A stretch of 64,000 bases of DNA, from contig NSKI01000003.1 of NCBI GenBank assembly GCA_003586005.1, positions 1 to 64,000 on the forward strand, given 5' to 3'. The position numbers and the translations under genes were made by a program. Source of the stretch: Haloplasmatales bacterium 4B. GTDB taxonomy: Bacteria > Bacillota_I > Bacilli_A > Haloplasmatales > Haloplasmataceae. Positions 6,350 through 43,654 of this stretch are shown here, piece by piece. Below the pieces are notes generated by a model. The model was not told the origin of the DNA. It searched no databases and worked only from the letters and a program-made list of their open reading frames with translations. Numbering within the stretch: the stretch's first letter is position 1; the number at the start of each line of letters is the position of its first letter.

Positions 6350-7747
6350 TTACTTACGCCAACTTTCTAATTCCCAGTTTTGATAGCGTAATTCATCTTT
6401 CTTTTTATATTTTAACTCAAAATCACCGAGTGCTTCAAGAGCTTTATCGCTTAAGATTAAAATTACTATAATATTTACAAATGCTGCAACGCCAACACCC
6501 ATATCAGCAAGTATCCAAGCAAAATCGGCTCGATAAACTGCACTCAAAAATATTATTAACAAAAAAACAGTTTTATAAATAAAATTGGCTATTTTATATA
6601 TCTTTTTTCTTCTAAATACAAAAATAAGATTTGATTGCGCATTATAAAAACCACTAAATAACGATGTATAGGCAAAGAAAAAAATAGCAATTGTTACAAA
6701 AAACGAACCAAAATTATTTACCACAGTATTAATTGAGGTACTTACAAATTCAGTATAATGCAACCCAACATAGCCTTGATATAAGATTCTACCTTTATCC
6801 ATAACATTGTAACAATCAGTTATTAATATCATAAACCCGGTAGCTGAACATACAATAATTGTATCAATGAAAACACAAAAAGTTGATACTAAACCTTGCT
6901 TTACTGGATGAGTTACATTGTTTGAAGCTGATATATTGGGTGAAGAACCAACCCCGGCTTCATTTGAAAATAACCCTCTTCTAATACCATAACTCAAAGA
7001 ACTCCCCATAATACTACCATATATAGCATCTTTATTAAATGCACTATTTAAAATTAACCCAAAAACATTGTCTAGAAAATTTATATTTACTATAATAATT
7101 ATTAACGCTATTAACAAATAAATAAATGCCATAAACGGAACGACGACTTCTGCAACATTAATAATTCTTTTTGCATTTCCAAAGATAATATAGCCAACTG
7201 ATATAGACACTATCAAACCTATAACTACTTTAGGGAAATTAAAAGTAGTGTTCATTGTTGTAGATATAGTAGCTGATTGGATTGTGGGTAATAATAAACC
7301 AATACAAATAAAAAATATAAAAGAAATTACATGTGCCCAAAAAGGAGATCCAATTCCTTTTAAAATATAATAAGCAGGACCTCCTCGATATTCACCATTA
7401 ATCTCTATCTTATACATTTGTCCTAATGTATTTTCTATAAATGATAAGACAGAACAAAACAACGCCGTTATCCACATCCAAAAAATAACACCCGGTCCAC
7501 CATAAAGAATCGCGATAGAAACACCAATTATATTTCCTGCCCCAATATGACTTGCTAGAATCAAAGCTACAGTTTGAAAAGAAGAGATTTTTTCTTTGTC
7601 AGGATTTTTTTCAAATAATAGTTTAGGCATTAATTTAATAAACCTAAATTGTACAAGTTTAGTTTTTATACAAAAATAAATGCTAGCAAAAATTAATATT
7701 ACAATAAGTGGCCAGCCCCAGATAATTTTACTAACAATATAATCCAT
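6350..7747 (-). CDS. Sodium:alanine/glycine-type symporter (AGCS family)
   Basis: Inner-membrane amino-acid carrier driven by sodium or proton. The 465-residue, highly hydrophobic protein has about ten membrane segments and both AGCS hallmarks: GAGNIIGV at 69-76 and GIRRGLFSNEAG at 254-265, followed by GVGSSP. AGCS proteins carry alanine or glycine and occasionally other small amino acids. The gene lies next to the proline-catabolic operon, so proline or alanine uptake is conceivable, but a terminator separates the two transcription units and the substrate cannot be read from sequence. It is followed after 9 bp by cinA. The ribosome-binding site GGAGG supports the ATG at 7747. Confidence 0.93.
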   Translation of the reverse strand: MDYIVSKIIWGWPLIVILIFASIYFCIKTKLVQFRFIKLMPKLLFEKNPDKEKISSFQTVALILASHIGAGNIIGVSIAILYGGPGVIFWMWITALFCSVLSFIENTLGQMYKIEINGEYRGGPAYYILKGIGSPFWAHVISFIFFICIGLLLPTIQSATISTTMNTTFNFPKVVIGLIVSISVGYIIFGNAKRIINVAEVVVPFMAFIYLLIALIIIIVNINFLDNVFGLILNSAFNKDAIYGSIMGSSLSYGIRRGLFSNEAGVGSSPNISASNNVTHPVKQGLVSTFCVFIDTIIVCSATGFMILITDCYNVMDKGRILYQGYVGLHYTEFVSTSINTVVNNFGSFFVTIAIFFFAYTSLFSGFYNAQSNLIFVFRRKKIYKIANFIYKTVFLLIIFLSAVYRADFAWILADMGVGVAAFVNIIVILILSDKALEALGDFELKYKKKDELRYQNWELESWRK

Positions 7748-7811
7748 ATTCCCTCCACCATTTTATTTAATTATTACTATTTTATTCAATGAGAGGTGGT
7801 AAATATGATAA

Positions 7812-7841
7812 ATAAAAAAAGGTCGTGAAAATTCACAACCA
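7812..7841 (-). terminator. Terminator of the proline-catabolic operon
   Basis: Minus strand hairpin GGTTGTGAA-T-TTCACGACC (one G-T pair), then seven T, placed directly after rocA. Confidence 0.88.
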
Positions 7842-7849
7842 TTCTTTCT

Positions 7850-9403
7850 TTAAAGACTCTCACTAATTGTTTTCCCTTGCATATGTAGGATTAAATAATC
7901 TGGTCCTCCCGCTTTAGAATCTGTTCCACTCATATTAAATCCACCAAATGGTTGGTAACCTACTATGGCGCCTGTACATTTACGGTTAAAATATAAATTA
8001 CCGACATGGAACTCTTCACGAGCTTTCTCTAAATGCACACGATTATTAGAAATCACAGCTCCCGTTAATCCGTATTCTGTATTATTAGCAACCTCAATTG
8101 CCTCGTTAAAATCTTTCACTTTCGTTATCGCAACAAATGGTCCAAATATCTCTTCTTGCATGATTCTGGCAAATGGATCAACATCAATTATAACAGTTGG
8201 TTCAACAAACCAGCCAACAGATGCATCAACTTTACCACCCGCAACAATTTTCCCTTCATTTGCTCCGATTTTTATATATTCGCTTAAACGTTCAAATGCT
8301 TTCTCATCTATAACTGGTCCCATATAATTCGAGAAGTCATAAGGATCGCCTATAGTTAAAGCTTTTGTTTTTTCTACTACTTTACTTATAACTTCATCAT
8401 AGACATCTTGGTGAATAATCGCTCTTGAGCAAGCGCTACATTTTTGTCCACTAAAACCAAAGGATGATTTAACAATAGCATCAGCTGCAAGCTCAGTATC
8501 GATATCGCTATCAACAACAATAGCATCTTTTCCGCCCATTTCAGCAATTACTCGCTTTAACCATATTTGTCCTTTTTGAACTTTTGCAGCTTTTTCGTAT
8601 ATAGATGCTCCTACATTCTTTGAACCAGTAAAAGATATAAAACGAATTTTTGGATGATTAACAATGTATTCACCTATCTCTGAACCTTTTCCTGGAACAA
8701 AATTTACAACACCAGCTGGCAACCCAGCTTCTTCTAAAACTTCCACAAATTTATAAGCGATTATTTGAGTAGTTGAAGCTGGTTTTAATAATACTGTATT
8801 CCCACTAACTACCGCTGCAGTTGTCATACCTGTTAATATTGCAAGTGGGAAATTCCAAGGTGTAATAACAGCACCAACACCTAGAGGGATATACCGATAT
8901 TCGTTTCGCTCAATATTTCGGCGGCTTAAGACCTTGTTATCTATTGAACCAAGTTCTAACATTTGTCGCCCATAAAATTCTAAGAAATCAATAGCTTCTG
9001 CTGTATCAGCGTCTGCTTCAATCCATGGTTTCCCAGCTTCCTTCGTCAATAAAGCACTAAATTCAAATTTACGACGTCTTATAATGGCTGCCGTTTTAAA
9101 CAAAACATCTGCTCTGACTTTCGGATCAACTTTACTCCAAGTTTTAAACGTATCTAAAGCAACTTCCATCGCCTCTTCAGCTTCTTTTATTCCTGCCTGA
9201 TGGATACTACCTATTAATTCTTGGTGATTACTAGGATTATATGATTTAACTAATTGTCCGGTTTCAATTCTTTTCCCGCCTATAATAAGTGGATAATTTT
9301 TCTCATATTCTCCTACTTTTTTTAGACCTTTTTTAAACATTTCTTGATTTTCTTTTTTACTGAAATCCACTAGAGGTTCAGTTTTATATGTATATATCGC
9401 CAT
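7850..9403 (-). CDS. rocA: 1-pyrroline-5-carboxylate dehydrogenase (RocA type)
   Basis: NAD-dependent aldehyde dehydrogenase that oxidises glutamate semialdehyde (open form of pyrroline-5-carboxylate) to glutamate, the second step of proline catabolism. The 517-residue length and N-terminus ([10 protein letters not shown], then a [10 protein letters not shown] block) closely resemble Bacillus RocA. Catalytic residues are visible: Asn184 in TPWNFP, Glu288 in IAEMGG and the nucleophile Cys322 in SGQKCSAC. The FTGS nucleotide motif is at 258-261. It is the last gene of the operon, 21 bp after the flavin subunit of the dehydrogenase that should produce its substrate. That coupling is the main reason to read the upstream complex as a proline dehydrogenase. 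Confidence 0.95.
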
Positions 9404-9424
9404 TTTTTACTACCTACTACCTTT

Positions 9425-10570
9425 CTAAACTACTGATTTTTCATATATAAAATCTTTTTTATTTTTAAATCTACTTAGATGCAAATCACTAATGTCAATC
9501 GTAGACTTTTCCTTCAATATAATTTCCGATAACAAAAGTCCAGTCATTGGCGCAAACATAAATCCATGACCACTAAAACCACACGCTAAATAAAATCCTT
9601 CTAATTCATTAGTATCACTAATGATTGGTTGACGATCTGGAGACATGGTATATGACCCTCCCCATTGTCTTATAACACGAAGATTACCAACTAGCGGTAA
9701 TATTTCACAAACTGTTTTTGCCATTTCATCTAAAAATTTCCAAGTAGATTCATTACTATGATTATGCTCTACTTCAGGGTTACTTCGTCCCATAATAAAA
9801 CTTCCATGAGGAACTTGTTGACAATAGATGTTCTTAGTAAAAGACATAACCATCGGTCTTTGAACTTCCTCAATTGGTTCTGTTACTAAAATCTCATGAT
9901 TTTCAGCGTAAACAGGTATATTAACACCTGCCATATCGCCAATTTCTTTCGCATAACCTCCTGCTGCATTAACAACATTGTTTGAATTTATTTCCATATT
10001 AGCGGTGATAACTTTTTCAATTTTATTATTAACGATAATAATATCTGTAACTTCCTCATTAAAATAAAACTTTACACCTAGTCGTTTTGCTGCCTTAAAA
10101 TAAGCATCGGTCATACGAAATGGATTTAAATGACCATCTGTTGGACAAAAAGCGGCACCAGTAATAACATCTGTATTTAAATGCGGGACAATTTGTTTCG
10201 CTTCCTTTTTATTTATTTTTCTGGCTGGAATTCCTAAACTATTTTGAAGTTTTACATTTTTTTTAAATTGATGATCTTCTTCTTCATCAGTAGAAACAAG
10301 CAAATAACCTTCTTGCTTAAATTCAATGTCCCCATCATATTTTAATGTTTCTTTAGCTTTTTCAAAAAACTCAATACTCCCTTTAGCTAACAAACAATTC
10401 ATTTTCGTTCCCCATTGTTGCCTAATTCCAGCACCACATCTACCAGTAGATCCACTAGTAAGATATGCCTTTTCCAAAACAACAATGTCTTTAACACCCT
10501 TGATTGCTAAATTATAGGCAATACTACATCCACTAATTCCAGCACCAATAATTACATAATTAGCTTTCAT
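9425..10570 (-). CDS. FAD-dependent amino-acid dehydrogenase, catalytic subunit (probable proline dehydrogenase)
   Basis: D-amino-acid-oxidase/sarcosine-oxidase-like flavoprotein of about 381 residues. It has the FAD dinucleotide fold GAGISGCSIAY near the N-terminus, the ADP-binding VVLEKA end, a TSGSTGRCGAGIRQQWG segment typical of the multi-subunit dehydrogenase group, and the C-terminal FAD motif GGSYTMSPD...GFSGHGFMFAP. Homologues form the catalytic beta subunit of archaeal heteromeric L-proline dehydrogenases and of HcnC-like and octopine-type complexes. With rocA downstream, L-proline is the best guess; hydroxyproline or another secondary amine is possible. The ATG at 10570 is preferred over 10585 because AAGGAG sits 6 nt upstream; it overlaps the previous gene by 11 nt. 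No classical PutA/PRODH barrel protein is present in the window. Confidence 0.85.
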   Translation of the reverse strand: MKANYVIIGAGISGCSIAYNLAIKGVKDIVVLEKAYLTSGSTGRCGAGIRQQWGTKMNCLLAKGSIEFFEKAKETLKYDGDIEFKQEGYLLVSTDEEEDHQFKKNVKLQNSLGIPARKINKKEAKQIVPHLNTDVITGAAFCPTDGHLNPFRMTDAYFKAAKRLGVKFYFNEEVTDIIIVNNKIEKVITANMEINSNNVVNAAGGYAKEIGDMAGVNIPVYAENHEILVTEPIEEVQRPMVMSFTKNIYCQQVPHGSFIMGRSNPEVEHNHSNESTWKFLDEMAKTVCEILPLVGNLRVIRQWGGSYTMSPDRQPIISDTNELEGFYLACGFSGHGFMFAPMTGLLLSEIILKEKSTIDISDLHLSRFKNKKDFIYEKSVV

Positions 10571-10841
10571 TGTTTGCTCCTTCACAAATGGAATTTAGTT
10601 TTACTCCTGTTGCAAGTGGCCTCACTTTCTGAGTTTTTACATCTTCTAATTTCACTTTTAAATACTTACTAATTTCTCTTTGAACTAACTGACCACAGGT
10701 ATTACTTTGGCAAGGTCCCATACCAATTCTTAAGAGTCGTTTCAATTCCTCGAAACTGGTATAGCCTTGATCCATCATATCATGTAAATCTTGTAAGGTA
10801 ACATCCTCACAGCGACAAATAATCACATCTTTTTCACTCAT
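10560..10841 (-). CDS. BFD-like [2Fe-2S] subunit of the dehydrogenase complex
   Basis: A 93-residue protein of the bacterioferritin-associated-ferredoxin-like [2Fe-2S] fold. The four cysteines are in the expected pattern: IICRCEDV (C-x-C, residues 8-12) and GPCQSNTCG (C-x4-C, about 43-49). In heteromeric proline, hydroxyproline and opine-type dehydrogenases this domain carries electrons from the substrate flavin towards the NAD(P)-side flavoprotein. Its ATG overlaps the TGA of the upstream gene as ATGA, which indicates translational coupling and also shows that TGA is a stop codon in this genome. It overlaps the downstream flavin subunit by 11 nt. Confidence 0.87.
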   Translation of the reverse strand: MSEKDVIICRCEDVTLQDLHDMMDQGYTSFEELKRLLRIGMGPCQSNTCGQLVQREISKYLKVKLEDVKTQKVRPLATGVKLNSICEGANNES

Positions 10842-11317
10842 ATTTTTCTCCTAATGGTTACAAAATCATATAAGTAGTCTTGATCTACTAAAACTTGAAC
10901 TAAAGCAGTTCGATCTTGGCGCTTTGTTAATGTAATTTTTTCAATCAAAGCATCTCCAATCACTTCACCTTTACGATTAATAGCGTTCCAAATTTCTCCT
11001 TCAACTGGGTACGGTAAAAATTCATAAGAAATTTTAAACCGCAACTTATCACCACTAACCTCACAAACCATAATGGCTAAACCAGGACAATTATAAACAC
11101 ATACTCCACAACCTGTACATTTATCAAAATTAACCTCAGGTTTATTATTAATATCTTCCCCTATCGTAATGGCTTCAAACGGACAGCTAGTGCTACAAGG
11201 ATTACAAGGAATGTTTTCATAACATTCAATGATTGCTTTTGGCCTAGCTAAAATCTCATGATTTGGAAAACGAGATTGAACCTGCTCTAACGTCGCTACC
11301 CCTTCTTTAGCTAACAT
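10838..11317 (-). CDS. Ferredoxin-like 4Fe-4S subunit of the dehydrogenase complex
   Basis: A 159-residue electron-transfer protein. Cysteine clusters are IPCNPCSTSCPF and DKCTGCGVCVYNCPG, the second being a full C-x2-C-x2-C-x3-C-P ferredoxin motif; the first is shorter and may use an outlying cysteine (ECYEN). The C-terminal half (about 100-159) is a small beta-rich domain. The ATG at 11317 is chosen over 11374 and 11347 because AAGGAG lies 9 nt upstream and this start avoids a 50-nt overlap with the previous gene. It sits between the NAD-side flavoprotein and the BFD-like subunit, consistent with an internal electron wire. Confidence 0.85.
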   Translation of the reverse strand: MLAKEGVATLEQVQSRFPNHEILARPKAIIECYENIPCNPCSTSCPFEAITIGEDINNKPEVNFDKCTGCGVCVYNCPGLAIMVCEVSGDKLRFKISYEFLPYPVEGEIWNAINRKGEVIGDALIEKITLTKRQDRTALVQVLVDQDYLYDFVTIRRKI

Positions 11318-11321
11318 TTTC

Positions 11322-12401
11322 TCACGCTCCTTGCTTTTTGAGCCCATTGAGAATTTTATCCCCAAACGGACCATTACGTAAATTATTTAATTGTGTATTG
11401 TATTCATCCATTAGTTCATCATAGCGAGGGTGAACGTTTCCCAATTTTTTACTAGCTAATAATCCTGTAATATATCCCTCAACTATAGCACTACTTGCTT
11501 CTTCTATACCAGAAGCGTCTCCACAAGAGAAGATATTTTCAATACTAGTTTCGTGATTTGGATATATAACTGGAACTAATCCTCCCAATTCACTGATATA
11601 CTTCATTTCTGAACCAATCATCGATTGCAGATTGGTTAATGGAGTTAATCCTACTGCAATACATACGGCATCAACTTCATATTCTTTTTCGGACCCTGGA
11701 ACCTCATTCCATTTCTCGTCTAATTTAACGGTTACTATTTTTTCAACAGCTTCTGTTCCGATTGCTTTTTTAATAGTACAAGAAGTAACTATGTCAATAC
11801 CTAAACGTCGAATTTTTGATGCATGAACTTTATATCCCCCAATTTTAGGACTTGCTTCTATAATAGAAAGCACTCTCACGCCTGCTTGCATTAATTGATA
11901 ACTTACAATTAAACCAATATTTCCACTTCCGACCATAACAATTCTACTACCTGGTTTTACACCATAAACATTCATTAAGGTTTGAACAGCTCCGGCTCCA
12001 TAGATACCTGGTAAATCATTGTTTTCAAAGGCTAATACTTTTTCACTTGCACCTGTTGAAATAATAACTGCCTTAGATTGAACTTTAATATATAACTCAT
12101 TCTTCAATACGGTAATAACCTTATCTTGATAAAGACCAACAACAGTAGCATCATCCCATATTTCTATGAGATCAGGATGTTTTCTAACATCCTCTACAAG
12201 TTTATTCGCAATATCAATACCCCTTGTTTTCGCAAATTGTTTTTCAGAACCAAAGAACATATGAGTCTGTTTAATTAACTGTCCCCCTAAAGTCCGGTTA
12301 CGATCAATTAACAAACAACTTTGGCCAGCCTCAGCTGCCATTTTGGCTGCACATAATCCCGCTGGTCCACCACCAATAATGACTAAATCTTTATTTATCA
12401 T
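11322..12401 (-). CDS. NAD(P)/FAD oxidoreductase subunit of the dehydrogenase complex (HcnB-like)
   Basis: Pyridine-nucleotide-disulfide-oxidoreductase-type flavoprotein of about 359 residues. It has the FAD motif IIGGGPAGLCAA at the N-terminus, the ATG motif ISTGASEKVLAF, a second nucleotide fold VGSGNIGLIVSYQLMQAG (about 160), and the closing FSCGDASGIEEAS motif. It corresponds to the alpha (HcnB-like) subunit of heteromeric proline/opine dehydrogenases and should pass electrons to NAD or another carrier. The ATG at 12401 (AAAGGTG 6 nt upstream) is preferred over an upstream GTG; it overlaps the preceding gene by 11 nt. Confidence 0.87.
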   Translation of the reverse strand: MINKDLVIIGGGPAGLCAAKMAAEAGQSCLLIDRNRTLGGQLIKQTHMFFGSEKQFAKTRGIDIANKLVEDVRKHPDLIEIWDDATVVGLYQDKVITVLKNELYIKVQSKAVIISTGASEKVLAFENNDLPGIYGAGAVQTLMNVYGVKPGSRIVMVGSGNIGLIVSYQLMQAGVRVLSIIEASPKIGGYKVHASKIRRLGIDIVTSCTIKKAIGTEAVEKIVTVKLDEKWNEVPGSEKEYEVDAVCIAVGLTPLTNLQSMIGSEMKYISELGGLVPVIYPNHETSIENIFSCGDASGIEEASSAIVEGYITGLLASKKLGNVHPRYDELMDEYNTQLNNLRNGPFGDKILNGLKKQGA

Positions 12402-37596: not shown

Positions 37597-38220
37597 TCAA
37601 CCTCTTATTTTATTTACAATTATTTTATAAACATCATTAACCACTGACTCTAATTCTCTATTTGCATCAACAACAATTATTCGATCCTTAAACATTTTTT
37701 TAACAGTTTCATAGCCCACATAAGCTCGTTTATGAAAGTCGATAGTTTCTAAATCTAATCGATCTAATGATGATCTACTTGCTATTCTTGATAAACCAAC
37801 TTCAGGGCTTATATCTAAAAATACAGTTAAGTCAGGCATAACGTCCTCAATCGCAAATTGATTTATAGAAAATACTTCATTTATGCCTAAATTTCTTCCA
37901 TGGCCTTGATAAGCTAATGAGCTTTCAACAAATCTTTCGCATAAAACGATTTTGTTGTTTTTTAGAGCTGGTATCACTTTTTCTACTAAATGTTGACGAC
38001 GACTTGCTGCATATAAAAGTGCCTCTGTTTTGGCGTCCATTGCTGTATTATTAGGGTTTAAGATAATATTTCTAATTTGCTCAGCTATATCAATACCACC
38101 CGGTTCCCTAGTTGTAATATGGTTAATTTTATCTATATTAAGCATTTTCGATATTTTTTTAACTATCGTTGATTTCCCTGACCCATCTGGTCCTTCTATG
38201 GCGATAAATAGTCCTTTCAT
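37597..38220 (-). CDS. tmk: Thymidylate kinase
   Basis: Phosphorylates dTMP to dTDP. The 207-residue protein has P-loop EGPDGSGKST (9-18), the DRX-type motif ERFVESSLAYQG (about 95-106), TTREPGG (36-42) and the lid SRSSLDRLD. It starts the tmk-holB-ricT-yabB cluster. A helicase-gene terminator lies upstream, so a promoter is expected in 38221-38290, where only weak boxes are seen. Confidence 0.97.
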   Translation of the reverse strand: MKGLFIAIEGPDGSGKSTIVKKISKMLNIDKINHITTREPGGIDIAEQIRNIILNPNNTAMDAKTEALLYAASRRQHLVEKVIPALKNNKIVLCERFVESSLAYQGHGRNLGINEVFSINQFAIEDVMPDLTVFLDISPEVGLSRIASRSSLDRLDLETIDFHKRAYVGYETVKKMFKDRIIVVDANRELESVVNDVYKIIVNKIRG

Positions 38221-38450: not shown

Positions 38451-41400
38451 TTATTTTACCAATTTATTCATAATATTAATTACTTTGTTTATCTCAAGTT
38501 CACTATCACGCCACCAGTCGCATCCCCAGATTCGATGGATTTCCCAACCATGACTTTCTAAATATTTTTGACGATGATAATCGCGTTCTTTAATAGAATT
38601 CATATGCTTCTTACTATTGTCCAGTTCTATTCCTAGTATATAACGATTTGATAATTTATCTACTATTGCAAAATTGATTTTATGTATTCCCGTACCTACA
38701 TTGCGTTCCACGTCAAAGCCACTATTAACTAATTCATTAAAAACACTTTCTTCAAACATACTATAATCTTCATTTATATTAACGTTAATATGGTCTGATA
38801 AACTATATAGTATTTTTTGAGTAGTATCCTGATCATCTTCATTAACAGCCTTAACATATTCTAAATAGCTTCTTAATAATTTAGGACCTCTATTTTTTAA
38901 ATCATCAACATTCAGTTCAAATGGTTCTATTGAAGTAACAACATATATTTTTTTCTTGGCCCGACTTATTGCGACATTTAAGCGATTTTCACCACCATCA
39001 TTATTTAACCAACCGAATTGCCTAACAATCCGATTATATTCATTTGGCGCATAGCCGATAGAAAAGATAATAATATCGCGTTCATCCCCCTGAACATTTT
39101 CAATATTTTTAACGAATAATTGATCTTTTGCTTCTCGAACTCTTTCACTAGCGATAATATTATTAAATTTAGAGTTATATAAACATTCTTCTTCTATCTT
39201 ATCTAAGATTAAATCTTTTTGTGTCGAGTTAAAAGTTATAATACCAATTGTTTCATCAGTTCTTTCACTAAATATATTTTTAAGCAAAATAATAATTTCG
39301 TTTGCTTCAGCTTCATTTTTTCGATCAATCCATCGACCATTAACTTTTACTCTTTCAATAGGTCTACTATTTGAAAGCTGAGGATTTGGACAAACATGTA
39401 GCTTACCTTCATAGAAAGCATAATTAGAAAACGCGATTAATTCTTCATATTTTGAACGGTAATGATAATTTAACATTACTTCATGATAGCGGTGTTTCGC
39501 TAAATCTAATAAACTTTCTTCTTCTAACACTCCACTATATTCATCATAATCAGCTTCTTCACTATCAATTCTTCCTAAGCCAAATTTAGATGGTCGTAAC
39601 TGTTTACTGTCACCTGCAATTATTACTTTTTTGCCACGATATAAAATTGGAATTGCATTTTCGATATACATTTGTGAAGCCTCATCAAAGATGATTATAT
39701 CAAAGATGGATTCTTTCATAGGTATTAATTCTGATACACCTTCGGGTGTTAACAACCAAACATAAACACTATTAAACAACTCCAAATTAAATTCTTTTAT
39801 TAATTTAGTAATTGACCATTTTCGTTTATTCTCGCATTTTCTTTTTAATTCATTTAAGCGCTTTGATTGCTCATTAAACACAGATTGAATATTGTCTTGT
39901 AAATAATTATACAAACACTCAAAAGTTAAACGTTCCTTTTCTAATGATAAATTAGTAATTTTATTTCTAATATCATGATATCTTTCAGAAATAATTAAAA
40001 TATTATCATATTTTTGTTCATATTCTATTATTTCGACAGCAGTAAATAAATCAATTAAATACTCATTTACTTTAGGAAAGGGAATATTGAGTTTTTTAGC
40101 TAAATAAAAACAATATTCGAAATATCTCTTTTCAATTAAACTTAAACTGTCATACACGTTTTTATTAAAAATATATTTGGGATAGGCTTCTATTGCCTTC
40201 ATGAACAAAGAAACATCTTCATAAATTGCTGTTTTTACTTTTTTCCGATGTTTTCCACCAAGATTCATTGTTAAAGCTTTTATTTCCTGATTTAATTCTT
40301 TGTTTTTTTGATTTAAACGAAATTTCGTAATCCAGCCAAACTTATTATATAAATCAACATAAAAGGGTATTTCATAAAAAGTTTTCGGTTGAACATACAA
40401 ATCTGTTTCATTAACATCTTCTTTAAATAAAGCATATATTTTTTCATATTTTACATCTTCTTTATAAGCTAGTAAATTTAAATAAAGTTGATTATTTTGA
40501 AACATTTGTCTCAAACTTATCAATTGTTCAAGGGTAAAACGATGATTAAATTTACGATGATTAATTTCTTTAAATAATCTTTCAATATCAAGGTCTTTTA
40601 AATCAAGTTTTCGAGAATTTTGATACATTTCCCGTAAGCTAGCATCAAGTTTTGTTTTACTATCCAGTAACATTTCTAAATCATTTAATTTGTCTAATTG
40701 AATATTTATCTCTGAAGCTTTTTCATTTATTTTTTCTTTATTTACAACTAATGAATCATCAAAGTCTAATATTGATAATAGTTGTTCATAAAATAATTCT
40801 TTGTTATTTGGATCATCTATATATAATACAAAATTGGCGATTTTCCCTAAACGATTATAAATTACATCAAGTGCTGTTTTCTTTTCTGAAACAATAAGAA
40901 CTTTTTTATCATGCAAAACAGCTTGTGAAACTAAACTTGTAATAGTTTGTGACTTACCTGTTCCTGGAGGACCTTGAATTACCATAGCATCTTTTACTTC
41001 AATATTTGCTAATACTTTTTCTTGTGAGTAATTTAGTTCATTGATGTAAAATAGTTGATTTTCATCGGGATTGTCTGCTGATTCAATTTGGTTTCCATTA
41101 CTATTAATATCATCCATACCAACAAATAAATCCCTTGCTAAGTGACTAATCGTTTTATTATCGATTATATCACTGAAATCCCTTTGAATCGCATTACTAT
41201 AAGAAGGAAAAGCACCTAAAACACAATAACCTTTTAATTGTAAATATGGATCATCATACATTGGAAAGTTTAAATTGGTTGTATTATGAAAAGGTTCCAC
41301 AGTGATACTTTCTTTGTTTTTAATCAAAACATTATGTTTTCTAAAAAATGATATCGCATTATCAATAAAGGCTTTTGTCATATCTTCAACAACATTATCT

Positions 41401-42149
41401 GTTACAACTTCATTTTTATTATTAAATTTATTATTAGCAAGTACAATAGTTGAATTATATAAAATATCCCTGCTTTTATCAAAACGTAATCGATATTCAT
41501 TATTCACTACATCAATTTGAGCTGGAAATAAACATAATGGCGCTTTAATCTTAAATTCACTATATAACTTACCCTCAACATATGGGAACGCTAAATAAAG
41601 CGTCTCTTGACCCTTTTCAATTCGCACAGTTTCTGTTGACCGATATAAAGCTTTAATCGCATTATACTCATCAACAGCTTTTAAATTATTTTTATCATAA
41701 CTTACTTTAGCAATCGTATATTGTCTTGAATCTTCATTAATAAATGAGCTTATTATTTTATCAACATTTTTTAACCTTGTTAAATCAAAAGCGGTTTTAT
41801 TTGTAAGCCGATTTGTATACAATAAACGATTTCGCTGATTTATATTAACCAATTTATTACTTAACTTTTGGAGAATCTCAATTTCTTTATTATTACAACG
41901 TGAATAAGAACTAGAATACTGATTTACAACATTTAAAAACCTTTCTGCATATTTTTCCACAAAGGTATCACCAACACCACGAATTTTCTTAAAGTCAGAT
42001 ACACATCCAGGCTTTAATTTTACAATCGCATTAATTACATCATCACTACAAACAACAACGCGACTATTTTTCTTTAATCTATTTCTAAAATTCTCATTTT
42101 TTATTTTATCTCTTAATGATACTAATTGACTAAATAATTCTTGATCCAT
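38451..42149 (-). CDS. Large HRDC-DUF4011-SF1 helicase-DUF559-like nuclease
   Basis: A 1232-residue protein. Residues about 2-75 look like an HRDC domain (SDDVINAIVKLKPGCVSDFK, IRGVGDTFVEKYAERFL). Residues about 100-330 begin with INQRNRLLY, the start of DUF4011-type regions. A superfamily 1 UPF1/Dna2-like helicase follows: Walker A GPPGTGKS at 393-400, a long helical insertion, Walker B FDEASQM with AGDSKQLRPS (about 840-865), NYHYRS, and the motif V/VI region NVQGDERDIIIFS and NVAISRAKKKIYVV. The last 85 residues (GIELDNSKKH, YHRQKYLESHGWEIHRIWGC) resemble DUF559/Vsr-like PD-(D/E)XK nucleases. It stands alone next to a Cas9 remnant. A role in defence against foreign DNA is inference; general DNA repair is possible. 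Confidence 0.85.
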   Translation of the reverse strand: MDQELFSQLVSLRDKIKNENFRNRLKKNSRVVVCSDDVINAIVKLKPGCVSDFKKIRGVGDTFVEKYAERFLNVVNQYSSSYSRCNNKEIEILQKLSNKLVNINQRNRLLYTNRLTNKTAFDLTRLKNVDKIISSFINEDSRQYTIAKVSYDKNNLKAVDEYNAIKALYRSTETVRIEKGQETLYLAFPYVEGKLYSEFKIKAPLCLFPAQIDVVNNEYRLRFDKSRDILYNSTIVLANNKFNNKNEVVTDNVVEDMTKAFIDNAISFFRKHNVLIKNKESITVEPFHNTTNLNFPMYDDPYLQLKGYCVLGAFPSYSNAIQRDFSDIIDNKTISHLARDLFVGMDDINSNGNQIESADNPDENQLFYINELNYSQEKVLANIEVKDAMVIQGPPGTGKSQTITSLVSQAVLHDKKVLIVSEKKTALDVIYNRLGKIANFVLYIDDPNNKELFYEQLLSILDFDDSLVVNKEKINEKASEINIQLDKLNDLEMLLDSKTKLDASLREMYQNSRKLDLKDLDIERLFKEINHRKFNHRFTLEQLISLRQMFQNNQLYLNLLAYKEDVKYEKIYALFKEDVNETDLYVQPKTFYEIPFYVDLYNKFGWITKFRLNQKNKELNQEIKALTMNLGGKHRKKVKTAIYEDVSLFMKAIEAYPKYIFNKNVYDSLSLIEKRYFEYCFYLAKKLNIPFPKVNEYLIDLFTAVEIIEYEQKYDNILIISERYHDIRNKITNLSLEKERLTFECLYNYLQDNIQSVFNEQSKRLNELKRKCENKRKWSITKLIKEFNLELFNSVYVWLLTPEGVSELIPMKESIFDIIIFDEASQMYIENAIPILYRGKKVIIAGDSKQLRPSKFGLGRIDSEEADYDEYSGVLEEESLLDLAKHRYHEVMLNYHYRSKYEELIAFSNYAFYEGKLHVCPNPQLSNSRPIERVKVNGRWIDRKNEAEANEIIILLKNIFSERTDETIGIITFNSTQKDLILDKIEEECLYNSKFNNIIASERVREAKDQLFVKNIENVQGDERDIIIFSIGYAPNEYNRIVRQFGWLNNDGGENRLNVAISRAKKKIYVVTSIEPFELNVDDLKNRGPKLLRSYLEYVKAVNEDDQDTTQKILYSLSDHINVNINEDYSMFEESVFNELVNSGFDVERNVGTGIHKINFAIVDKLSNRYILGIELDNSKKHMNSIKERDYHRQKYLESHGWEIHRIWGCDWWRDSELEINKVINIMNKLVK

Positions 42150-42449
42150 ATTTTCACCTCATTTCAATACTAGTATATTTTATCATAATTTAATTAATAA
42201 AAAAAGAAACAATAAATTGCTTCAATAAATATTATTTTATTGATATGTCGAATATTATTGAATATTATATTTTTATACAATATATTACATAGTTTATTAC
42301 TAAAAAGAGGTATTATTGCAACTAATGTTGTTTTTGCTTCAATTATCATTAACACTAATTTTAAAAACTTATAGATTAAACTAAATTAGCTGGTGATAAT
42401 TATATTAATTTACTACATTTACCATACATAAAATTAAAGAGTACTTAAA

Positions 42450-42659
42450 CTATTCTTCTTTTGAGTTAGTACCAATAATAGCTTTAGTTGATATTTTTGA
42501 TTTAGCTTCAATATTGTTTTCGTTTTCTACGTTATGAATACATCTTCTTTTAGCCAAATGATATAATACTATTGCAAATTCTTCACTACTTAATTTATTC
42601 GATAATCCTCTTACTCTTAAGTTAAAAGGCGTCGTCAAATTACATTCGAAATCAAAATT
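42450..42659 (-). pseudogene. Cas9 remnant (region between RuvC-I/bridge helix and REC lobe)
   Basis: Frame on the minus strand from about 42659: FDFECNLTTPFNLRVRGLSN, KLSSEEFAIVLYHLAKRRCI, HNVENENNIEAKSKISTKAI, IGTNSKEE, stop. This matches the conserved Cas9 block 'NPYELRVKGL..KLS.EEFA.ALLHLAKRRG.HNV....... ELSTKEQI..NSK', closest in my memory to compact type II-A/II-C Cas9 such as that of Staphylococcus aureus (about residues 98-160). A TAG stop follows, no start codon is visible, and nothing else of the 1000+-residue protein remains, except perhaps a YHQL segment near 42395. No cas1, cas2 or repeat array is present. The rest of 42150-42449 has no supported gene. Confidence 0.72.
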
Positions 42660-42689
42660 GTTTTTAATAATTGAGTTTTTTTATTATTT

Positions 42690-42716
42690 ATATAAAAAAT
42701 GGACTATATGTCCATT
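42690..42716 (-). terminator. Terminator overlapping the end of ldh
   Basis: Minus strand hairpin AAAATGGAC-ATATA-GTCCATTTT followed by TT. The ldh stop codon lies within the loop. Confidence 0.8.
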
Positions 42717-43654
42717 TTTCCAATAGATTCCCTAATTACTTTTGCACTATCTTTAAACTTATCTTGATCAGTTTTACTCATATGAATTTTTAGAACCTCT
42801 CTAACACCATCTCGATTAATAATTGCTGGCATTCCTATATATAAACCATCAACATCATAATAGTTATCAATATATCCGCTTACTGGTATAATACTATTTG
42901 CATCATTGAAGATAGCTTTTGTTATATGACATAGTGCCATTCCAATTCCATAATATGTCGATTTTTTATACTCAATAATTTTATATGCTGCATCACGTAC
43001 ATCAACATAAATCTTCTCTAAATCCTCTAATTTGTATTCTTTATGCTCGCTAACTATATCAAGTAGTGGTTTAACCCCAACATTCGCATTACTCCATAGT
43101 GGAAATTCGCTATCCCCGTGTTCACCAACTATATAAGCATGAATACTTTTACTATCAATTTTGAGATAATCTGACAAGAGATAACGTAGCCTTGCTGAGT
43201 CAAGTGATGTTCCTGACCCAAAAACTTGTTGTTTTTCAAGACCTGAATACTTGTAAGCAACATAAGTCATTATATCGACTGGATTCGTAGTGACTAAAAT
43301 TATCCCATTAAAACCACTAGACATTATACTATCGACAATTTGCTTAATAATTCCAGAATTTTTTTTCAACAAATCAAGCCTAGTTTCTCCTTCTTTTTGT
43401 GCTGCTCCAGCAGTAATTACGATAAGACTTGCGTCTTTACAATCACCATAACTCCCAGCGTATATCTTCATGTTTTTAGGTGCAAAGGCAACACCATGAT
43501 TTAAGTCCATTGCTTCGCCTTCAGCTTTTTTCGAATCTTTATCAATTAACACTAATTCATCACAACCACCTTGATTTAGTAATGAGTAAGCATAACTCAT
43601 TCCTACAAAACCAGCACCAATTAATACTACTTTTCTTGTTTTATCACTTTCCAT
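42704..43654 (-). CDS. ldh: L-lactate dehydrogenase
   Basis: NAD-dependent enzyme that reduces pyruvate to L-lactate. The 316-residue protein has the GAGFVGMSYAY nucleotide fold (13-23), Asp38 in LIDKD, Gln86 in AQKEGETR that favours pyruvate over oxaloacetate, and the catalytic His179 in VGEHGDSE. The C-terminal half has YGIGMAL. It provides a fermentative NADH outlet beside the hydrogenase. It is a single-gene unit. A convincing Rex box was not seen in its upstream 60 bp. Confidence 0.96.
   Translation of the reverse strand: MESDKTRKVVLIGAGFVGMSYAYSLLNQGGCDELVLIDKDSKKAEGEAMDLNHGVAFAPKNMKIYAGSYGDCKDASLIVITAGAAQKEGETRLDLLKKNSGIIKQIVDSIMSSGFNGIILVTTNPVDIMTYVAYKYSGLEKQQVFGSGTSLDSARLRYLLSDYLKIDSKSIHAYIVGEHGDSEFPLWSNANVGVKPLLDIVSEHKEYKLEDLEKIYVDVRDAAYKIIEYKKSTYYGIGMALCHITKAIFNDANSIIPVSGYIDNYYDVDGLYIGMPAIINRDGVREVLKIHMSKTDQDKFKDSAKVIRESIGKMDI

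Follow-up and report, generated by a model that had tools for sequence, protein, structure and literature searches.

We propose, with about even confidence, that the 1232-residue protein encoded in the window (the whole stretch of 64,000 nucleotides that was analysed, from Haloplasmatales bacterium 4B) is an SF1 helicase/translocase of the Upf1/SMUBP2/Dna2 type that works by itself and is settled in the chromosome, whose ancestry appears to be Hhe- or PDC-S37-like and whose putative role is genome maintenance. A settled DNA-handling enzyme seems likelier than an active phage-cutting weapon, because the gene has ordinary chromosomal neighbours and the protein has lost a catalytic residue. Three features of the sequences argue for the maintenance role: the helicase motifs are intact, the nuclease domain is eroded yet constrained, and the locus between a lactate/malate dehydrogenase-like gene (ldh) and the thymidylate kinase gene (tmk) is conserved. 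The main rival is a working solitary anti-phage gene of the Hhe kind, in which the helicase would sense or unwind invading DNA and the Vsr-like domain would cut or block it through a noncanonical site, or the helicase would be the sole effector; we regard this as possible and give it clearly less than even credence.

The gene is a single-gene unit that starts with ATG, which agrees with the sequence-only reading that it stands alone, and the four-part HRDC, DUF4011, SF1 helicase and Vsr-like nuclease layout proposed there was confirmed by Pfam, with fold matches supporting its two ends (Table 1). The HRDC, DUF4011, AAA_11, AAA_12 and MTES_1575 profiles all exceed their curated cut-offs, DUF559 falls slightly below its own, the SF1 core is complete, and the Walker B motif DEASQ (residues 822-826) lies upstream of AAA_12. 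AlphaFold models of residues 1-362 (pLDDT 86.9) and residues 1100-1232 (pLDDT 87.5) were searched with Foldseek. The former resembles the RecQ HRDC domains 1wud and 2rhf (TM by target 0.82-0.87) and the latter the DUF559/Vsr-type endonucleases 3hrl and 3r3p (I-Bth0305I; TM by target 0.77), with Foldseek E-values above 0.001 in both cases. The DUF4011 unit is modelled confidently up to about residue 345, and this part has no fold match among PDB structures. MTES_1575_REase is defined as a Vsr-fold nuclease (PMC3710099).

Table 1. Features of the helicase gene and its surroundings in the window.
Feature	Position	Strand	Basis
CDS, HRDC - DUF4011 - SF1 helicase - Vsr-fold pseudo-nuclease, 1232 aa	38451..42149	(-)	ORF and Pfam
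Ribosome-binding site GAGGTG	42155..42160	(-)	Sequence
HRDC domain, residues 2-81	41907..42146	(-)	Pfam 27-75, E 1.9e-7; RecQ HRDC fold match
DUF4011, residues 99-235	41445..41855	(-)	Pfam E 1.2e-6
SF1 RecA-like domain 1, AAA_11, residues 372-531	40557..41036	(-)	Pfam E 2.3e-19
Walker A GPPGTGKS, residues 393-400	40950-40973	(-)	Alignment
SF1 RecA-like domain 2, AAA_12, residues 879-1073	38931..39515	(-)	Pfam E 1e-18
MTES_1575 REase (Vsr-fold), residues 1132-1225, site eroded	38475..38756	(-)	Pfam E 3.1e-25
N1159, replacing the catalytic Asp of the PD-(D/E)XK site	38673..38675	(-)	Alignments with Hhe and intact relatives
E1175, kept	38625-38627	(-)	Alignments
D1177, kept	38619-38621	(-)	Alignments
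tmk, conserved downstream neighbour; then holB and a PSP1-type gene	37597..38220	(-)	Names read from translations
ldh, conserved upstream neighbour; yolD and dinB before ldh	42704..43654	(-)	Names read from translations
Cas9 fragment between ldh and the helicase gene, probably a nonfunctional remnant	42459..42671	(-)	cas_Csn1 positions 76-155, E 3.1e-8

The nuclease site was compared across relatives. As judged by alignment, intact relatives carry a D...ExD site in the Vsr fold; the window protein has N1159 at the first position and also retains E1133. In the model, N1159 starts the second strand and E1175 lies near the end of the third, matching the expected PD-(D/E)XK layout. The six orthologues of the Haloplasma-group family have N, N, N, N, H and D at the catalytic Asp position, the last belonging to G003, whose D/E/D triad is full and counts against the maintenance role. 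Among copies of the main Izemoplasma lineage, the motif-III Glu (the E1175 position) is changed to I, V or L in all 23 that are readable, a count that includes some contig-end fragments lacking the N-terminus and leaves out L169, which is another protein that has the triad but no HRDC. The E1175 position is also I, V or L in L041, L043 and L044, and the nuclease site is lost too in L046, L047, L064/L074, L071 and L072. L047 (G018, 7733-11356) is a second HRDC copy in one genome of the Izemoplasma family, and its nuclease end is strongly degenerate. Outside the HRDC form, a large clostridial clade (L073-L131) has Ser (or Pro) at the catalytic Asp position, the Ser form keeping ExD; by its sequences, this clade represents a separate loss of the nuclease site. 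The triad is intact in treponemal and clostridial HRDC members, in one archaeal member (L057) and in L053/L056, which favours a solitary defence gene, while the loss of catalytic residues in the window protein and most of its close relatives argues against one. The sequence-only reading had named a nuclease dead in all homologues as evidence against defence: degeneracy holds for five of the six orthologues and the readable Izemoplasma copies, but other homologues are intact.

That the protein is still a helicase-nuclease with a shifted active site, built from N1159, E1175, D1177 and E1133, seems improbable to us. Catalytic sets do differ among Vsr/DUF559 enzymes, the window protein retains the three acidic residues, and the 1159 position is Asp in G003. 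However, PD-(D/E)XK enzymes rely mainly on the motif-II Asp to bind the metal, the position varies between D, N and H inside one family, and the Izemoplasma lineage lost the Glu instead.

The helicase is better conserved than the nuclease and HRDC domains, with mean identities within the Haloplasma-group family of 0.78-0.80, 0.63 and 0.57, respectively. Neither Walker A nor Walker B changes in alignment A1 or in any full-length HRDC relative read, and the other helicase motifs are conserved. Open frames are full-length in all six orthologues, and pN/pS among them is 0.11-0.44 in every domain and 0.22-0.29 in the nuclease domain, ratios that are rough since synonymous changes are near saturation. 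Given this identity and pN/pS alongside an eroded site, the nuclease domain is under purifying selection and kept, though probably not as a catalyst, and such constraint would fit a retained binding role. The same data bear on the reading of the gene as a defence gene in decay, drifting since it lost its nuclease. The catalytic site has indeed eroded repeatedly, with at least five changes of state on the tree within the HRDC clade and eight over the whole tree, but the full-length frames, the invariant helicase motifs and the low ratios in every domain already disfavour decay, which we consider very improbable.

For the favoured maintenance enzyme, the following mechanism may be envisaged. The HRDC domain and the Vsr-fold pseudo-nuclease would bind branched or otherwise unusual DNA, DUF4011 would probably couple this binding to the motor, and the ATP-driven motor, with a 5'-3' polarity predicted from SF1B relatives, would remodel the bound DNA at stalled forks, flaps, R-loops or protein-DNA blocks. 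Its role would lie mainly in genome maintenance and not in the cutting of invading DNA. As to origin, we find it rather unlikely, but worth stating, that an anti-phage helicase-nuclease lineage was domesticated several times in Bacilli, in which the inactivated nuclease stayed on as a pseudo-enzyme that binds DNA, while the helicase turned into a vertically inherited maintenance factor; RecC, with its inactive nuclease-like domain, offers a parallel.

The gene occupies a largely conserved place in the Haloplasma group. In the genome collection the order consists of this single family of eight genomes (G000-G007), six of which carry an orthologue, and in five of the six carriers (G000, G001, G003, G004 and G006, representing five species and four genera) the gene lies between ldh and tmk-holB-PSP1-trmN6. 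This long-kept place beside tmk-holB weighs against a solitary defence gene. G005, the deepest member by housekeeping proteins, has ldh adjoining tmk without the gene, which sits elsewhere by sugar and transport genes; this empty site suggests that the insertion between ldh and tmk may postdate the G005 split. The sequence-only reading had held that a fixed housekeeping place across the order would speak against defence, which the ldh-tmk site in five carriers bears out and the different G005 site does not. Contigs of G002 (L143/L144) end exactly at ldh and tmk, the expected site, so that this genome is uninformative on absence. Divergence of the gene is close to that of its neighbours (correlation 0.69 over 10 pairs from the five ldh-tmk genomes), but the G004 copy has diverged further than expected from its neighbours (0.64 vs about 0.75), so inheritance is only approximately vertical. 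A location fixed across orders was rejected, since in G066 and G067 the gene is near tmk but at a different junction; there (L177 and L094, respectively) it lies between the end of a ribosomal-protein operon and ecf transporter genes, upstream of truA-tmk-holB. The AT-rich setting pointed out earlier is nothing special, the GC content of 26-29% being similar to that of the housekeeping genes on the tmk side.

To place the protein among its relatives, we used a FastTree tree of 89 sequences based on the DUF4011-helicase columns, in which FastTree flagged some long branches and whose sample, the best 80 of at least 573 genome matches plus relatives, is biased toward near relatives. The HRDC-bearing sequences form one monophyletic clade (37 of the 89 sampled relatives, support 100, one change of state), and the window protein has both the N-terminal HRDC domain and a position inside this clade. 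Members come from the Haloplasma group, Izemoplasma, Acholeplasma, Clostridia, Treponema (Spirochaetota) and two Thermoplasmatota MAGs; the occurrence in Spirochaetota and in the Thermoplasmatota MAGs, provided that these are free of contamination, implies horizontal transfer of the HRDC form, a spread that speaks against the maintenance role and for solitary defence. Of 49 Izemoplasma-family genomes, 29 have the HRDC form, usually as a single copy with few exceptions, which would suit a maintenance factor, but the gene's position varies between genera and some genera are without it; this patchiness favours defence and, like the different site in G005, counts against maintenance. G005 also has a second relative of the DUF4011-helicase-MTES_1575 type (L050, G005:C4, 8000-12007), 1335 aa long and without HRDC.

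The surroundings of other HRDC members give little sign of defence. When 129 and 139 proteins encoded near members outside the ldh-tmk locus were scanned with PADLOC, no recurring defence partner emerged among these 268, an absence of enrichment that is qualitative only. The matches were scattered (one AbiE pair, one Fic, one type II methyltransferase, and RecQ-like matches to DpdF), and the neighbours examined were mostly housekeeping genes, such as those for MetRS, Ddl, Mur ligase, RecD2 and transporters, as would be expected of a maintenance gene. The survey of neighbourhoods proposed by the sequence-only reading was thus run and yielded no defence island. Nor was the HRDC form seen on mobile elements: no plasmid record reaches 80% query coverage, one phage record matches 40%, the form is absent from the seven viral loci inspected, and the relatives tested on viral contigs are without HRDC. 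Both observations argue for maintenance and against a solitary defence gene. The adjoining Cas9 remnant, a point for defence, is real but tiny and lies in an enlarged gap; a search of the source genome turned up no full Cas9, and the fragment is no part of the helicase protein's function. G005 has a second partial Cas9-like match (C7:113593-113904). Overall, the earlier suggestion of defence holds in that the protein's kin are anti-phage proteins, but it is weakened by the conserved place, the degenerate nuclease and the lack of a recurring partner.

Two repair-related roles were also considered and rejected. Complementation of a missing AddAB does not apply, since AddB occurs in all eight family genomes (over the cut-off in seven, with a partial match in G007), and where some Izemoplasma genera lack AddB this does not track presence of the gene. 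Replacement of RecQ is likewise not supported: canonical RecQ exceeds the cut-off in two of the eight family genomes, G004 and G005, and both carry the gene too, so the two are not mutually exclusive.

These results bear on how such proteins are annotated. Defence annotation tools match them strongly to Hhe or PDC-S37, and the recurrent loss of nuclease residues with a kept helicase is a warning against defence calls based on homology only. The natural series from intact to eroded sites within one clade would also allow a test of whether Hhe-type proteins need the nuclease at all.

Finally, we compared the window protein with named systems, where the nearest characterised kin are anti-phage proteins, a point against the maintenance role. 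The best PADLOC match is PDC-S37, a phage defence candidate (E 5e-151; 503 bits over two stretches, the better being residues 751-1230 on profile positions 874-1341 of 1550), whose relatives have the order DUF4011 - SF1 helicase - MTES_1575; non-HRDC relatives score anywhere from below to above the window protein on this profile. ProA (NCBIfam NF058533 anti-phage, 1903 positions) is matched in the C-terminal helicase and nuclease region (E 2e-154), at 516 bits against a cut-off of 1500. Hhe, which has the same order of DUF4011, SF1 helicase and MTES_1575, is matched with E 1.6e-80 in PADLOC and, by NCBIfam, at 379 bits over two stretches against a cut-off of 2000. These three matches favour a solitary defence gene, but from the scores the window protein is a distant, short relative of Hhe and ProA, well under the NCBI cut-offs. 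The Hhe example WP_064824465.1 from a Klebsiella plasmid shares ~34% identity over the C-terminal 470 residues; it differs in having 1893 aa and no HRDC, in keeping the nuclease site IDIAV...GIECDGATYH where the window protein has N1159, and in its plasmid location with insertion sequences on both sides. The anti-phage helicase-nuclease kinship suggested earlier is therefore real, but among named systems the protein stands closest to PDC-S37, ProA and Hhe rather than to Mokosh. Mokosh type I comprises an SF1 helicase with the partner MkoB, and type II has a PLD nuclease domain; the window protein matches only the SF1 helicase core (MkoA 7e-39, MkoC 3e-29 in PADLOC), Pfam finds no PLD domain in it, its conserved locus offers no partner gene, and membership was rejected. 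HRDC is common to RecQ/BLM (TIGR01389, E 8.8e-6; fold match 1wud), but RecQ joins an SF2 core to a C-terminal HRDC, whereas here an SF1 core follows an N-terminal one. In the literature searched we found no published name for the HRDC-DUF4011-SF1-MTES_1575 subfamily, which the DUF4011 papers there were not seen to treat, and PDC-S37 goes unmentioned there. That the arrangement fits no named system, as first proposed, is true of the HRDC form but not of its core: the HRDC-less arrangement is already known from Hhe and PDC-S37, and what is new, on sequence grounds, is an HRDC-bearing variant whose nuclease is eroded and whose helicase is retained.
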